Positions 5,967-11,029 of a DNA stretch of 64,000 bases are shown piece after piece. The notes below the pieces were generated by a model. That model worked only from the letters and a program-made list of their open reading frames with translations, was not told where the DNA came from and did not search any database. Position numbers and translations under genes: made by a program. Each line of letters opens with the position of its first letter. The first letter of the stretch is position 1. Where the stretch lies: contig NZ_BMKQ01000001.1 in NCBI RefSeq assembly GCF_014644415.1, positions 62,001 to 126,000 on the forward strand, given 5' to 3'. The stretch is from Marmoricola endophyticus. Lineage in GTDB: Bacteria > Actinomycetota > Actinomycetes > Propionibacteriales > Nocardioidaceae.

Positions 5967-6015
5967 GGGGCGCACGGGTGATCCGGCGCACGGACCGACC
6001 GACGAGGGGAGCGAG

Positions 6016-6231
6016 ATGAGCGAGAGCAGCACCTGGTGGTGGCGCCTGGAGGGGCCCGACGGGTCCGAGGTCCAGCCCGAGCAGCGGCAGGAGTTCCCGA
6101 CCCGGTCCGACGCGGAGTCGTACGTCGGGGAGGCGTACGTCGAGCTCGCGGACGCGGGTGTCGCCGCCGTCACCCTCTTCGAGGACGACCGCCTCGTCTA
6201 CGGCCCGATGTCGCTGTCCGCCGAGGCCTGA
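6016..6231 (+). CDS. Small conserved hypothetical protein
   Basis: A 71-residue acidic protein (MSESSTWWWRLEGPDG...) with no membrane segment. It is preceded by a purine-rich GAGGGGAGCGAG and lies 49 bp after gcvT on the same strand, so it may be cotranscribed. The Trp-rich start and the SYVGEAYVELADAGV helix look like a folded small domain. No function recognised. Confidence 0.65.
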   Translation: MSESSTWWWRLEGPDGSEVQPEQRQEFPTRSDAESYVGEAYVELADAGVAAVTLFEDDRLVYGPMSLSAEA

Positions 6232-6259
6232 GCGCCCGGGGCGCACACGTCTGAGCGTG

Positions 6260-6643
6260 TCACCCCTGCCCGTCGTTGGCGTCGAGCCAGTGCTCCACCT
6301 CGCGGTACGTCGGCGAGGGGCCGGTGCGGATGGAGCGCCCCGGCCCGAGGGGCTCGAGGCGACGGGTGCAGTGCTGCATCCGGACGGTGGCCGAGCCGAG
6401 GTCGGGTCCGCACGCCTGGTGGGGTGACAGGCAGCCGGTGCGCACGAGGACGGCGTGGTGCGAGCGGGCCACGAGGGGCCGCAGCGCCTCGAGGTGTCGC
6501 GCACCGGCCCCGGCGCACCCGCCGTGGGTGCAGACCAGGACCGCGCACAGCGGGTGGGTGCCGCTGCCGGTCGTGACGGCTCCGTCGCGTGCGGTGTCGC
6601 CCCGGGACCCGGTGGGGCGAGGACGTGGTGACGGCGTCTGCAC
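6260..6643 (-). CDS. Cys-rich protein, possibly (2Fe-2S) ferredoxin-like, in the zinc-starvation operon
   Basis: Last gene of the minus-strand operon that carries alternative ribosomal proteins. The GTG at 6643 starts 4 bp beyond the rpmJ stop and gives 127 residues. After a variable N-terminus comes CAVLVCTHGGCAGAG, then TGCLSPHQACG and MQHC: several cysteines spaced as in thioredoxin-fold [2Fe-2S] ferredoxin-like proteins or a metal site. The C-terminus (SPTYREVEHWLD) is well formed. The family assignment is tentative. The position implies expression under zinc limitation. A longer frame to 6706 would overlap rpmJ and is not preferred. Confidence 0.6.
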   Translation of the reverse strand: MQTPSPRPRPTGSRGDTARDGAVTTGSGTHPLCAVLVCTHGGCAGAGARHLEALRPLVARSHHAVLVRTGCLSPHQACGPDLGSATVRMQHCTRRLEPLGPGRSIRTGPSPTYREVEHWLDANDGQG

Positions 6644-6647
6644 CGCG

Positions 6648-6770
6648 TCAGCCCTGCCGCGCCTTGAGGCGGGGGTTGCGCTTGTTGATGACGTAGGTGC
6701 GGCCACGGCGTCGTACGACCTGAGCGCCGGGCTGGGCCTTCAACGAGCGCAGCGAGTTGCGGACCTTCAT
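6648..6770 (-). CDS. rpmJ: 50S ribosomal protein bL36, zinc-independent form
   Basis: A 40-residue L36: [20 protein letters not shown] then a basic tail with [15 protein letters not shown]. The ordinary actinobacterial L36 has zinc-binding Cys and His residues; this copy has no cysteine, the mark of the C-minus paralogue. Its ATG overlaps the rpsR stop (ATGA), so translation is probably coupled. Confidence 0.92.
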
Positions 6771-7036
6771 GTGGTTCCTCCGTGGTGGTGCTGGGTGGTG
6801 TACGGGAGCAGGGCCATCTCGCGGGCTGTCTTCACCGCGCGGGTGAGTGCACGCTGCTGCTGCGGCGTGAGGCCGGTGACCCTGCGCGGGCGGATCCTTC
6901 CCCGGTCGGACACGAACCTGCGCAGCAGCGTCACGTCCTTGTAGTCGACCGCGCGGACGTGCGGTGCCAGCAGGGGCTGCCGGCCGGCCGAGCGTCGGCC
7001 GGCTCCGGTGCGGGGGAGGGGCTTGCGCGCGCTCAC
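6767..7036 (-). CDS. rpsR: 30S ribosomal protein bS18, zinc-independent form
   Basis: An 89-residue S18: [23 protein letters not shown] and [27 protein letters not shown] are the conserved rRNA-binding part. No cysteine is present, unlike zinc-binding S18. The frame is open far upstream, but the GTG at 7036 overlaps the rpmF stop by 4 nt (GTGA) and gives the usual length. It sits between rpmF and rpmJ in the Zur-linked operon. Confidence 0.93.
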
Positions 7037-7209
7037 CACAGGTTCTCCGGGTCGACGTACCCGCGCTGCACGGCGCGGACGAGACGTCGTGGCACCTGGT
7101 ACGTACGGCCGCTCACGGTGACGGGCACCAGGGTGGGGACGCGCGCTCTCCAGGCGGAGCGGCGGTGGCGGGTGTTGCTGCGGGACGTGCGTCGTTTCGG
7201 AACGGCCAC
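7033..7209 (-). CDS. rpmF: 50S ribosomal protein bL32, zinc-independent form
   Basis: A 58-residue L32 starting at GTG 7209: (M)[19 protein letters not shown] is the family N-terminus. The C-terminal zinc ribbon is replaced by a Cys-free sequence ([20 protein letters not shown]). A GAGGAGG ribosome-binding site lies upstream. It follows the cobW-like gene by 39 bp and overlaps rpsR. Confidence 0.9.
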
Positions 7210-7248
7210 AGGAGCCTCCTCGTGTCGTCTGTCTTGGGGGGGTGGGGG

Positions 7249-8358
7249 TCAGGCCACGTCGCGGATCGGACCGAGCCACGGCTCCAGCCCGTCCTCGGCG
7301 ACGCGCCAGGTGCGAGGCTCCGAGCGGGCCTCGGCCGGGGTGAGGAGCAGTCGCTCCCAGCCGGCGGTCACCGAGGAGGGCATCTCGCCCGGGCCGGTGA
7401 CGACGATGCGCGAGCACGGCGCCCGGCGGCCCCAGGTGCCTTCGGCGGCGAGGCTGAGGTGCCCGCCGGCGCCGTCCCACACCTGGACGGAGCCGGGCCT
7501 CGTGGGCACCCAGAAGCAGCCGCGCGAGCGGTGCGCACCGTCGGCGAGCACGTCCAGCTCGTCCAGGAGCCGGTCTGGGTGGAACGCACGCGGCGTGCTC
7601 AGCTCGACCTGCCATACGTGCGCGTGGTCGGCCGAGTCGGGGTGGACGGGGAAGAAGGGCGAGGTGTGCTCTGCGTACCTGCGGTGCTGGTGGCCGGTTC
7701 TCGCGACCACGTCGAGGCCGAGGTGCTCGGTCCCCTCGACGAGTGCCGTGTCACGGCGGCCGAGCGCGCGCACCAGGGCGGCGCCGGCCTCGCGGTTCGG
7801 AGCCGAGTCGCCGGGACGCGGCGCGGGGTCGGGGTCGGCGAGCACGACCACGTCGGCGCTCTCGACCAGCGAGCACGCCACCTCGCCGATCCCCCGCTCG
7901 TCGTCCGGGCCGGTGTGCAGACCCCGGTCCCGCATCGTCGCCGGTCCGACGAGGTCCTCGACGAGGCGGCACCCGTCGAGGACCGCGACCAAGGACAGCA
8001 GCCGCAGCCGGCGAGCCAGGCGTGGGTCGGCGGCGAGCGCGTGCGCGAGCTGGTCGGCCGGCGCACCGACCGGGAGCCGGGCGACGATGGTGCGCCAGCG
8101 TGACTGCCTCGCGAGGCGGTCGAGGGTGGGCAGGACGTCCTCGCGCAGCGCGCAGCTCACGCACGCGTGCTCGAGCGGGATCTCCTCGCGCTCGATCTCG
8201 CCCGTCTGGTCGCTGACCACGCGCGTCAGCACCTGGGTGTCGGGGTCGATGTGGTGGGTGAGGGCCACCGCGTCCGGAGTGTCCCACAGCAGACCCAGGA
8301 CGGCGGCCGACATCGCGGCGGCGTCGACGCCGGTGACCACGACCAGTGGCGTCCTCAT
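7249..8358 (-). CDS. CobW-like protein with degenerate P-loop, zinc-starvation associated
   Basis: A 369-residue member of the CobW/COG0523 group, whose best-known members are GTPases that deliver metals. The N-terminus ([19 protein letters not shown]) sits where CobW proteins have GxxGxGKT, but the GK(T/S) residues are missing. The metal motif survives as CVSCALRED (C66 and C69), and the CobW C-terminal domain is recognisable ([20 protein letters not shown]...[12 protein letters not shown]). I recall a similar protein in mycobacteria (Rv0106). Its ATG overlaps the rpmE2 stop (ATGA). A role in zinc handling or ribosome remodelling during zinc limitation is inferred. Confidence 0.85.
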
Positions 8359-8609
8359 CGCGCGCCGTACCTGCGCTCGAAGGCCTGCACCCGACCTTCG
8401 GTGTCGAGCCTGCGTGTGCGACCGGTCCAGAACGGGTGGCTGTCGCTGGACACGTCGACGTCGACCACCGGGTAGCTCTGCCCGTCGACCTCGACCGTGG
8501 CGCCGGGGTCGAGGCCCGCCGCCAGGGTAGAGCGGACGAGGAGCACGCGTCCGGTGCTGCGGTCGCGGAACGCCGTCGGCCCGTAGGCCGGGTGGATGCC
8601 TTGCTTCAC
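8355..8609 (-). CDS. rpmE2: 50S ribosomal protein bL31 type B (zinc-independent)
   Basis: An 84-residue type B L31: [52 protein letters not shown]. It lacks the CxxC of type A L31. In bacteria with both, the B form replaces the zinc-bearing A form under zinc limitation. First gene of the minus-strand operon, starting about 20 bp from the Zur-type palindrome. Confidence 0.95.
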
Positions 8610-8628
8610 GGAGGGTCCTCACTGTAGG

Positions 8629-8647
8629 AATGAGAATCAGTCTCATT
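8629..8647. promoter_or_regulatory. Zur-type operator between divergent operons
   Basis: AATGAGAATCAGTCTCATT: perfect 7-bp arms around a 5-bp centre, close to the actinobacterial Zur consensus as I recall it. It lies between the starts of rpmE2 (8609, minus) and rpmB (8685, plus), so one site could repress both operons when zinc is sufficient. Confidence 0.85.
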
Positions 8648-8684
8648 TAAGATCTCAATCCCGTCAAGCAGAGGAGCTCATCGC

Positions 8685-8921
8685 ATGTCCCGTACGTGTC
8701 AGGTCACCGGCGCTCGTCCCGGTCACGGCAACCGCGTCTCGCACTCGCACCGGCGCACCAAGCGCCGTTTCGACGTCAACATCCAGCGCAAGCGCTACTG
8801 GGTCCCGAGCCTGCGCCGGCACGTCACGCTGCGCCTCAGCGCTCGTGGCATCAAGGTCGTCGAGGCTCGGGGGATCGACGCCGTCGTCCTCGACCTGCGG
8901 CGACGGGGGGTCACACTCTGA
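8685..8921 (+). CDS. rpmB: 50S ribosomal protein bL28, zinc-independent form
   Basis: A 78-residue L28: [59 protein letters not shown]. Only one cysteine is present, so the zinc site of the C-plus form is absent. A GAGGAG ribosome-binding site precedes it. First gene of the plus-strand operon; its stop overlaps the rpmG start (TGATG). Confidence 0.94.
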
Positions 8922-9091
8922 TGGCGCGGCGAGGCAACGAGCTGCGACCGATCGTGAAGCTGCGCTCCACCTCCGGCACGGGCTACACCTATGTGACCCG
9001 CAAGAATCGGCGCACCCACCCGGGCCGTCTCGAGCTGCGCAAGTACGACCCCGTCGTCCGCCGGCACACCACCTTCCGCGAGGAGCGCTGA
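8921..9091 (+). CDS. rpmG: 50S ribosomal protein bL33, zinc-independent form
   Basis: A 56-residue L33: [20 protein letters not shown], then [22 protein letters not shown]. It has no cysteine; zinc-binding L33 has two CxxC pairs. Start and stop codons both overlap neighbours by 1 nt (rpmB upstream, rpsN downstream), indicating tight translational coupling. Confidence 0.94.
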
Positions 9092-9396
9092 TGGCCAAGC
9101 AGAGCAAGGTCGCCGCCGACCGTCGTCGTCGCCGGCTCGTGGTGGCCTACGCCGAGCGTCGCGCCGCACTGAAGGAGCAGGTCAGGACCAGCTCCGCCGG
9201 GTCGGCCGAGCAGGCGCGGGCGGTCAGCGCGCTGTCCCGCCTGCCCAGGGACTCCTCACCCGTCCGGCTGCGCAACCGCGACCAAGTCGACGGGCGTCCG
9301 CGCGGCTACGTCCGCAAGACCGGTACCTCCCGCATCCGGTTCCGCGCGATGGCTCACCGAGGCGAGCTGCCGGGGATCCGCAAGTCCAGCTGGTAG
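9091..9396 (+). CDS. rpsN: 30S ribosomal protein uS14, zinc-independent form
   Basis: A 101-residue S14 of the longer, Cys-free type: [40 protein letters not shown], then [18 protein letters not shown]. Short zinc-binding S14 has CxxC pairs, absent here. Third gene of the plus-strand rpmB-rpmG-rpsN operon, the same order found in other actinobacterial Zur regulons. Confidence 0.95.
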
Positions 9397-9505
9397 CGGA
9401 CCCCGACAGGCGTCGGGAGGTCGGCCTCGTGCGCCGCTGGGTGCTCGTGCCGGGTGGTGGCAGGTCGGGCGGGTGCACCGGCCGACTGTGCAGCCGGCCG
9501 GGCGC

Positions 9506-10093
9506 TTAGTAGCGCTCGGGAAGCGGCTCGCGCCACTTGCGCTGCGGCTTGGGCATCCGCAGCTTGCGGATCTGGATCGCGCGCATGAACGCGTAGAACC
9601 GCCAGCCCCGGGGCGAGTGGTCCGTCCCGGCGAAGCGGGCCTTCACCTGCCGACCGAGCTGCCAGTCGAGGGCCACGACGTCCAGGAGCAGCAGGATGAT
9701 GCTGGCGATCCAGATGTAGCCGCTGGCCGCGACTAGCACGGGGACGGTGCTGGCCTGCAGGACGATGATGACGACCAGCACCGGCAGCAGGAACTCCATG
9801 AAGGAGACGCGGGTGTCGACGAAGTCGCGGACGAACCGCTTGACCGGACCCTTGTCGCGCTCCATCAGGTAGCGCTCGTCACCGGTGCGCATCCCCTCGC
9901 GCATCTTGGCGTTCTGCTCCGCCCGCTGTGCGCGCTGCGCCCTGGCGGTGGACTTCTTGTCCATCCCGCCCTTCGCGCGTTCCCGGGCGGCCGCCTCCGC
10001 CTCGCGACGGGTGGGGGTCGGGCGTCCCTTGCCGTGACCCTCGTCCTCGTGGGTCGCGGGCTGAGGGGCGGTCTCCTTGGTGCGTCCGAACAC
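9506..10093 (-). CDS. DUF3043 membrane protein
   Basis: A 195-residue protein with a charged N-terminal half rich in Arg, Glu and Ala, probably helical (TRREAEAAARERAKGGMDKK), two hydrophobic segments (FMEFLLPVLVVIIVLQ and ASGYIWIASIILLLLDVVAL), then a basic tail (IQIRKLRMPKPQRKW). This layout is that of the actinobacterial DUF3043 family, whose function is unknown. It converges on rpsN and diverges from pspA. Confidence 0.85.
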   Translation of the reverse strand: MFGRTKETAPQPATHEDEGHGKGRPTPTRREAEAAARERAKGGMDKKSTARAQRAQRAEQNAKMREGMRTGDERYLMERDKGPVKRFVRDFVDTRVSFMEFLLPVLVVIIVLQASTVPVLVAASGYIWIASIILLLLDVVALDWQLGRQVKARFAGTDHSPRGWRFYAFMRAIQIRKLRMPKPQRKWREPLPERY

Positions 10094-10240
10094 GGGTGCG
10101 GCTCCGGTGATCGTGGTGTGCAGGTCGTCGCGAAGCCTACTCGCCGGGGAACCTTGTACCCGGCGTGCGCGTTCACCTCATAGGTTGGGGGCGAGCACGC
10201 ACGTGCTCCACGACCGGACGCAACAGACAGGGAGCTCTCG

Positions 10241-11029
10241 ATGGGCTTGTGGCAGCGCTTCAGCATGATCTTCAAGGCCAAGGCGAGCCAGGCGCTCGAC
10301 CGTGCGGAGGACCCGCGTCAGACACTGGACTACAGCTACGAGCGACAGCTCGAGATGCTCACGAAGGTACGCCGCGGCGTCGCCGACGTCGCCACCAGCC
10401 GCAAGCGGCTGGAGATGCAGATCACCCAGCTGACGACCCAGCAGACGAAGCTGACCGACCAGGCGCAGAAGGCGATCGACGTCGGGCGCGAGGACCTCGC
10501 TCGGGAGGCGCTGAGCCGGAAGTCGGGCCTGACCGGACAGATCACCGACCTGCAGGCCCAGCACGAGCAGCTCCAGGGCGAGGAGGAGAAGCTCACCCGT
10601 GCCTCGCAGCAGCTGCAGGCCAAGGTCGACTCGTTCCGTACCCGCAAGGAGACGATCAAGGCGACGTACTCCGCTGCCGAGGCCCAGACCAAGATCAACG
10701 AGGCCTTCTCCGGGATCTCCACCGAGATGGGCGATGTCGGGCAGGCCGTGCAGCGGGCGGAGGACAAGACCGCCGCGATGCAGGCCCGGGCCGGCGCGAT
10801 CGACGAGCTGCTCGCCTCCGGCGCCCTGGACGAGCCGGGCGCGCTCGGGCGAGGTGACGACATCAGCCGTGAGCTGGAGCAGATGAGCTCGCAGTCCGAC
10901 GTCGAGTCCGAGCTCGCGGCGCTGAAGTCCAAGAGCCCGACGCAGGGCCAGCTCGGTGCCGGTGCCGGCGAGGACCAGCCGGTGCTGGACGCCGCCGAGC
11001 AGACCGACCCGCAGAAGAACACCGAGTAG
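10241..11029 (+). CDS. pspA: PspA/IM30 family phage-shock protein
   Basis: Peripheral membrane protein of the ESCRT-III-like PspA/Vipp1 family, which coats stressed membranes. The 262-residue protein opens with the amphipathic helix MGLWQRFSMIFKAKASQALD, followed by long coiled coil rich in Gln, Lys and Glu (about residues 25-210) and a low-complexity tail. Followed by htpX (35 bp) and pspAB, which fits an envelope-stress operon. No PspB or PspC gene is nearby. Confidence 0.93.
   Translation: MGLWQRFSMIFKAKASQALDRAEDPRQTLDYSYERQLEMLTKVRRGVADVATSRKRLEMQITQLTTQQTKLTDQAQKAIDVGREDLAREALSRKSGLTGQITDLQAQHEQLQGEEEKLTRASQQLQAKVDSFRTRKETIKATYSAAEAQTKINEAFSGISTEMGDVGQAVQRAEDKTAAMQARAGAIDELLASGALDEPGALGRGDDISRELEQMSSQSDVESELAALKSKSPTQGQLGAGAGEDQPVLDAAEQTDPQKNTE

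Follow-up and report, generated by a model that had tools for sequence, protein, structure and literature searches.

A predicted Zur-controlled divergon for zinc-independent ribosomal proteins and an Mrf-like pseudo-GTPase in Marmoricola endophyticus

Seven ribosomal proteins (S14, S18, L28, L31, L32, L33 and L36) are known as pairs of a zinc-binding form (C+) and a form without its cysteine pairs (C-), and all seven pairs are present in Streptomyces coelicolor (PMC13418864, citing Owen 2007). Pooled over actinobacteria, Zur regulons include the same seven names (PMC2823685, section 7), and an operon encoding four proteins of this kind occurs in mycobacteria (PMC5912738). In Mycobacterium smegmatis, the gene for Mrf (MSMEG_6069) lies between those for L28 and L31, and expression of the cluster is higher upon zinc starvation (PMC7174638). 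Mycobacterial Rv0106/Mrf is the recruiter for ribosome hibernation; Rv0106 is Zur-controlled, is missing the Walker A motif and has CxSC instead of CxCC (PMC2770081). We analysed a cluster of this kind in Marmoricola endophyticus, whose genome comprises 3.66 Mb in 22 contigs. It lies in a window, by which we mean the whole stretch of 64,000 nucleotides under analysis (G000:C1:62001-126000), and positions without a contig name are positions in it. We consider it highly probable that the cluster is a Zur-repressed divergon that would render ribosomes zinc-free, and that it probably primes them for hibernation. Among the papers listed by a literature search on Nocardioides, Zur and alternative ribosomal proteins, none was seen to describe the cluster.

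The cluster consists of two operons that face away from each other across a gap of 75 bp. The minus-strand operon begins with a type B, zinc-independent L31 (8355-8609; PF01197, E=4.2e-23; NF002462, 98.7 bits versus a cut-off of 86), followed by a COG0523-like gene (7249-8358) and by zinc-independent L32 (7033-7209; PF01783, E=1.3e-10), S18 (6767-7039; PF01084, E=1.7e-24) and type B L36 (6648-6770; PF00444, E=3.2e-18; NF002021, 77.8 bits versus a cut-off of 70), after which lies an uncertain Cys-rich open reading frame (ORF). The plus-strand operon encodes zinc-independent L28 (8685-8921; PF00830, E=3.9e-23), L33 (8921-9091; PF00471, E=9e-18) and the long form of S14 (9091-9396; PF00253, E=1.7e-23; NF006477, 120.4 bits versus a cut-off of 77). 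All seven ribosomal proteins passed their Pfam cut-offs, and L31 and L36 also passed the NCBIfam "type B" models. Five junctions show overlaps of 1 to 7 bp, namely L31/CobW-like (4 bp), L32/S18 (7 bp) and S18/L36 (4 bp) on the minus strand and L28/L33 and L33/S14 (1 bp each) on the plus strand; 39 bp separate the COG0523-like gene from L32.

Six of the seven ribosomal proteins are free of cysteine, the sole residue being Cys5 of L28, and reading the sequences revealed no CxxC pair in any of them. In a genome-wide search, every one of the seven families had exactly two copies over its cut-off, of which one lies in the cluster and the other outside it; two extra L32 matches fell under the cut-off. 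The copies outside the cluster carry zinc-ribbon cysteines in every family: L32 (G000:C1:1123664-1123819) has CSNPAC and CPEC, S18 (G000:C1:2170641-2170790) CQFC plus one further cysteine, L31 (G000:C1:1369916-1370113) CTC and CNKC, L28 (G000:C1:1129666-1129830) CDIC and CTGC, L33 (G000:C1:1712124-1712261) CVEC and CPRC, S14 (G000:C1:1649404-1649559) CQRC and CRVC, and L36 (G000:C1:1641291-1641401) CDKC plus one further cysteine. Therefore, the cluster encodes C- paralogues and not the standard ribosomal proteins. A sequence-only reading of this DNA had described seven ribosomal proteins without cysteine pairs, in overlapping genes flanking one palindrome; the seven proteins, their missing cysteine pairs and the overlaps were all borne out, and the genome does hold C+ paralogues of all seven, whose absence that reading had named beforehand as a refutation. 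Its gene set and span need amendment, since it left unmentioned the eighth gene (7249-8358) and spanned 6260 to 9396, whereas the ribosomal set starts at 6648 and the ORF at 6260-6643 is the Cys-rich one.

The palindrome common to both operons, AATGAGAATCAGTCTCATT at 8629-8647 (strandless), is a candidate Zur box; the start codon of L31 is 19 bp away from it and that of L28 37 bp. It agrees at 14 of 15 positions with the S. coelicolor Zur motif tGaNNatSatNNtCa, which is given together with a 21-bp actinobacterial motif in PMC5472717. With up to three mismatches allowed, the 21-bp consensus matched the window at this site only, on both strands and at three mismatches, and 100 shuffles gave a mean of 0.00 matches. 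A weight matrix trained on 35 distinct sites from relatives, with the window excluded, scored the site at 34.5, within the range of the training sites (28.5-40.2) and far above the runner-up in the 64 kb (2.6); as the training sites were picked by consensus, the matrix retains some dependence on the published motif. The palindrome thus stands where the sequence-only reading had put it, far above chance. A second consensus match, at 10260-10274, was discarded as a chance occurrence, given that it lies inside an ORF (10241-11029) and outside the eight best matrix hits.

The degenerate pattern TGANNAYSATNNTCA proved too loose, giving 129 genome matches per strand at one mismatch (10 and 12 in the backward control). 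A narrower pattern with up to two mismatches gave 11 and 15 matches (control, 3 and 2) at 19 genome places, a search that more divergent Zur boxes could escape. The window site has no mismatch to it, C1:175696 has one, and the 17 places with two mismatches have matrix scores of 8.6 or less. The site at C1:175696 scores 27.5 and is the only other strong box from this search; it lies between a Fur-family, Zur-like gene (G000:C1:175281-175640) and a divergent znuA (PF01297, E=1.4e-52). The Zur-like protein matches the solved structures 3mwm (best, E=6.9e-42), which we take to be S. coelicolor Zur, 7vo0_G, and 2o03 (E=1.1e-36), which is named FurB, zinc uptake regulator. The cluster thus has a Zur-type box in its promoter region and the genome a Zur-like gene. 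Of the Zur control that had been proposed, the single operator holds and is joined by a Zur-like gene beside znuA with its own box; Zur binding and a response to zinc are predicted from these. In the locus L128, whose own positions 6258-9401 (G000:C1:175257-178400) hold the Zur-like gene and znuA, the ORFs downstream resemble, by eye, an ABC ATPase and a permease.

The gene at 7249-8358, on the minus strand between L31 and L32, encodes a COG0523-like protein with a CobW_C domain (PF07683, E=1.9e-9; PF02492, E=2.6e-4). The window protein has no Walker A motif, and CVSC replaces CxCC. Among 46 relatives aligned with it (L090, a partial gene, was left out), no P-loop was seen in the N-terminal 40 columns, CVxC is invariant and HACVxCAxRE occurs in all 47 sequences, window included. 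The protein matched NF047431, the hibernation recruiter MRF, at E=7e-40 and 137 bits, below the 375-bit equivalog cut-off; we therefore call it Mrf-like and not an Mrf equivalog. Its structure model has a pLDDT of 90.8, and fold comparison gave YjiA as the best solved match; a sequence search of solved structures returned nothing at E<=0.01. The version recorded in the protein database starts later and is 363 aa long; relatives commonly begin with MRTP like the 369-aa version. A genome search with PF07683 missed even the window's own gene, and is thus uninformative on other COG0523 genes. An Mrf proper recruits HPF/Mpy to ribosomes that are free of zinc and is degraded in its zinc-bound form. 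One gene with the C-terminal domain of the long hibernation-promoting factor (HPF) is present in the genome. Encoded alongside C- ribosomal genes at the Zur-type box, the Mrf-like protein is probably a COG0523-like pseudo-GTPase of the hibernation-recruiter type that travels with the remodelling set under the same operator.

To place the cluster among relatives, we collected 47 loci with peptide patterns taken from the Mrf-like protein of the window; the set is therefore selected by this gene. Three organisms contribute two loci each, and seven loci fall short of the requested length. In named genomes, the Mrf-like (CobW-like) protein of the cluster has its best matches in Nocardioides; those in Aeromicrobium, Pimelobacter, Jiangella and others rank lower. 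Of the 47 loci, 41 encode one or more C- ribosomal proteins within about 3.5 kb. L32 and L36 are each present in 34 loci and together in 32, S18 in 11, and all seven proteins in eight (L045, L046, L047, L048, L052, L059, L077 and L087); these counts cover the loci only, and a C- gene missing from a locus may be encoded at another place in the genome concerned. At Mrf-like loci, L32 and L36 are therefore usual members and S18 is an optional one. The sequence-only reading had taken the set to be unusually complete on account of L32 and L36, a view at odds with these counts and with the publication of all seven pairs for S. coelicolor; the rarity it expected is in fact reversed, S18 being the rare member.

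The detected cluster copies in the 47 loci contain no CxxC. In nearly all comparisons, the window C- protein was closer by score to a relative's cluster copy than to its own C+ paralogue (L28 37/37, L33 32/33, S14 36/37, L31 31/32, L32 34/34, S18 10/11 and L36 34/34), in a comparison for which the relatives' copies had been picked with the window proteins as queries. A second match to the L36 family occurs in 23 of 57 genomes drawn from the order and in 8 of 17 in the same family, a draw that includes this genome and in which the second copies of the others were counted without reading their sequences. In 17 of the 47 loci, L28 and L31 are divergent neighbours, the arrangement seen in the window; in L075 they also occupy opposite strands but the order differs, and several other loci are unidirectional. 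At the operon heads, the best site was taken from about 700 bases at each locus, and 39 of the 47 have one that agrees with the degenerate consensus at 14 or more of 15 positions; these 39 supplied the 35 distinct training sequences of the matrix.

Several loci have other arrangements. In L059 and L088, the C- ribosomal genes occupy one strand and the Mrf-like gene the opposite one, an arrangement suggesting that recruiter and ribosomal genes can switch sides of the operator. Six Mrf-like genes (L058, L061, L063, L069, L074 and L090) have no C- neighbours; with the exception of L090, a partial gene, each of them has close to its start a Zur-like site that agrees at 14-15 of 15 positions. Loci with and loci without C- proteins occur side by side in the genomes of Nocardioides gansuensis and N. 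albidus.

Taken together, these data are consistent with a switch that would act as follows. Under zinc-replete conditions, zinc-loaded Zur would sit on 8629-8647 and block both divergent promoters. Under zinc scarcity, Zur would leave, and the L28-L33-S14 and L31-Mrf-like-L32-S18-L36 operons would be expressed. The seven proteins without cysteine pairs would then replace their zinc-binding paralogues in ribosomes, so that zinc is spared or freed. The conserved CxSC of the Mrf-like pseudo-GTPase may report the loss of zinc, and the protein would probably then help a long hibernation factor of the HPF/Mpy type to bind zinc-free ribosomes. Repression, incorporation into ribosomes and hibernation are carried over into this scheme by inference from other actinobacteria.

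Three other explanations have to be weighed against this scheme. Under one of them, the remodelling would be controlled by Zur just as proposed, and the COG0523-like protein would be a zinc chaperone or insertase of the YciC/ZigA/ZNG1 type that supplies scarce zinc to client enzymes, and not a recruiter. The COG0523 fold, with the Escherichia coli GTPase YjiA as its best solved match, fits such a role, as does the ZigA model, which matches 35 of 35 members scanned; in addition, Zur regulons of actinobacteria have a COG0523 protein in their conserved core (PMC2823685, section 7). However, a GTP-driven chaperone cycle is unlikely for proteins that show no Walker A motif and have CVxC for CxCC throughout the alignment; moreover, the MRF model likewise matches 35 of 35 and outscores ZigA for the window protein (137 versus 79 bits). 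We regard a chaperone as unlikely. The C- copies could also be the organism's main ribosomal proteins, or decaying duplicates, free of zinc control, as small proteins diverge easily. The seven C+ copies elsewhere in the genome, the intact and overlapping reading frames and the recurrence of both Zur box and gene set in relatives make this the least probable of the explanations considered.

The palindrome itself might serve another Fur-family regulator, such as Fur or PerR, in place of Zur. Fur-family boxes resemble each other, and the genome has three Fur-family genes. The only other strong site, however, lies between the Zur-like gene and znuA, and no comparable site occurs in the 13 kb surrounding each of the two remaining Fur-family genes (best scores, 2.4 and -5.5), so that we consider such a regulator very improbable. 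Returning to the Zur-repressed divergon with its hibernation step, several observations weigh against it. The Mrf match is far under NCBIfam's own cut-off, and the ZigA model also matches the window protein. C- proteins are missing near the gene in 6 of the 47 loci, from which it follows that the tie between the two is not obligatory, and a 14-of-15 site is missing from the searched stretch in 8 of the 47. A simple scan of 8300-9000 found no sigma-70-like pair of promoter hexamers and no terminator. Zur control and expression of the cluster are predictions from sequence. Our main doubt concerns the step from zinc loss to hibernating ribosomes, which is drawn by analogy. To judge by its title, Tobiasson et al. 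2019 argues against loss of zinc being an invariable cause of hibernation in mycobacteria. PMC8866557 makes no mention of Mrf.

The Cys-rich ORF at 6260-6643 (minus strand) has its predicted start where the L36 gene ends and is possibly the last gene of the minus-strand operon. It is a listed 127-aa protein of the genome (P0121), is poorly conserved and is not a ribosomal protein; a protein search gave a single homologue, P0122 of Nocardioides bruguierae, and none of the 47 relatives' loci was found to contain the ORF. No Pfam family reached its cut-off, with a weak match to PEX6_vert_N (E=0.0045; 18 versus 26 bits). Its structure model, built on two sequences, has a pLDDT of 72. Foldseek found no solved match at E<=0.001 and none under E=0.017; its rows begin with a mitoribosome chain, followed by complex I chains and thioredoxins. 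That the ORF encodes a thioredoxin-like [2Fe-2S] protein is only a guess. An Rfam scan of 6000-10300 returned nothing at gathering scores.

The cluster is an example of a known system; the seven-pair picture was already established, and the completeness of the set is ordinary for the group. What our analysis adds is the company of the remodelling set: a pseudo-GTPase resembling the hibernation-recruiter type, whose gene overlaps that for L31 at the common operator. If our interpretation is right, the linkage between zinc-free ribosomes and hibernation that has been studied in mycobacteria would extend to other actinobacteria, and a compact cluster that holds seven exchanges, a recruiter and one operator within 2.8 kb would be convenient for testing the extent to which a ribosome is altered by zinc-ribbon removal. 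More broadly, and with slightly less than even confidence, we hypothesize that in Nocardioidaceae and relatives one operator drives a complete seven-protein exchange together with a pseudo-GTPase hibernation recruiter. Zinc starvation would then first rebuild and afterwards silence ribosomes, and the nucleotide-free COG0523 fold would serve as a zinc-status reporter across much of the actinobacteria, beyond mycobacteria.

Three described systems come closest. The C- paralogues of S. coelicolor (Shin 2007, Owen 2007, via PMC6103462, PMC5472717 and PMC13418864) share with the window the seven pairs, the regulator family and the 15-bp type of Zur box. In S. coelicolor, however, rpmG/B and rpmF have separate Zur-bound promoters, whereas all seven genes of the window lie at one operator. 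The altRP/Mrf cluster of M. smegmatis (MSMEG_6065-6070; PMC7174638, PMC5912738) resembles the window in its Zur-controlled C- forms of S18, S14, L33, L28 and L31, as well as in a COG0523-like Mrf gene that adjoins L31. Compared with it, the window adds L32 and L36, has two divergent operons and encodes an Mrf-like protein that scores well under the NCBIfam cut-off. Finally, the Rv0106-type proteins (PMC2770081) and the window's Mrf-like protein have in common the missing Walker A motif, CxSC in place of CxCC and control by Zur, which is predicted in the window, although the two are distant by family score.

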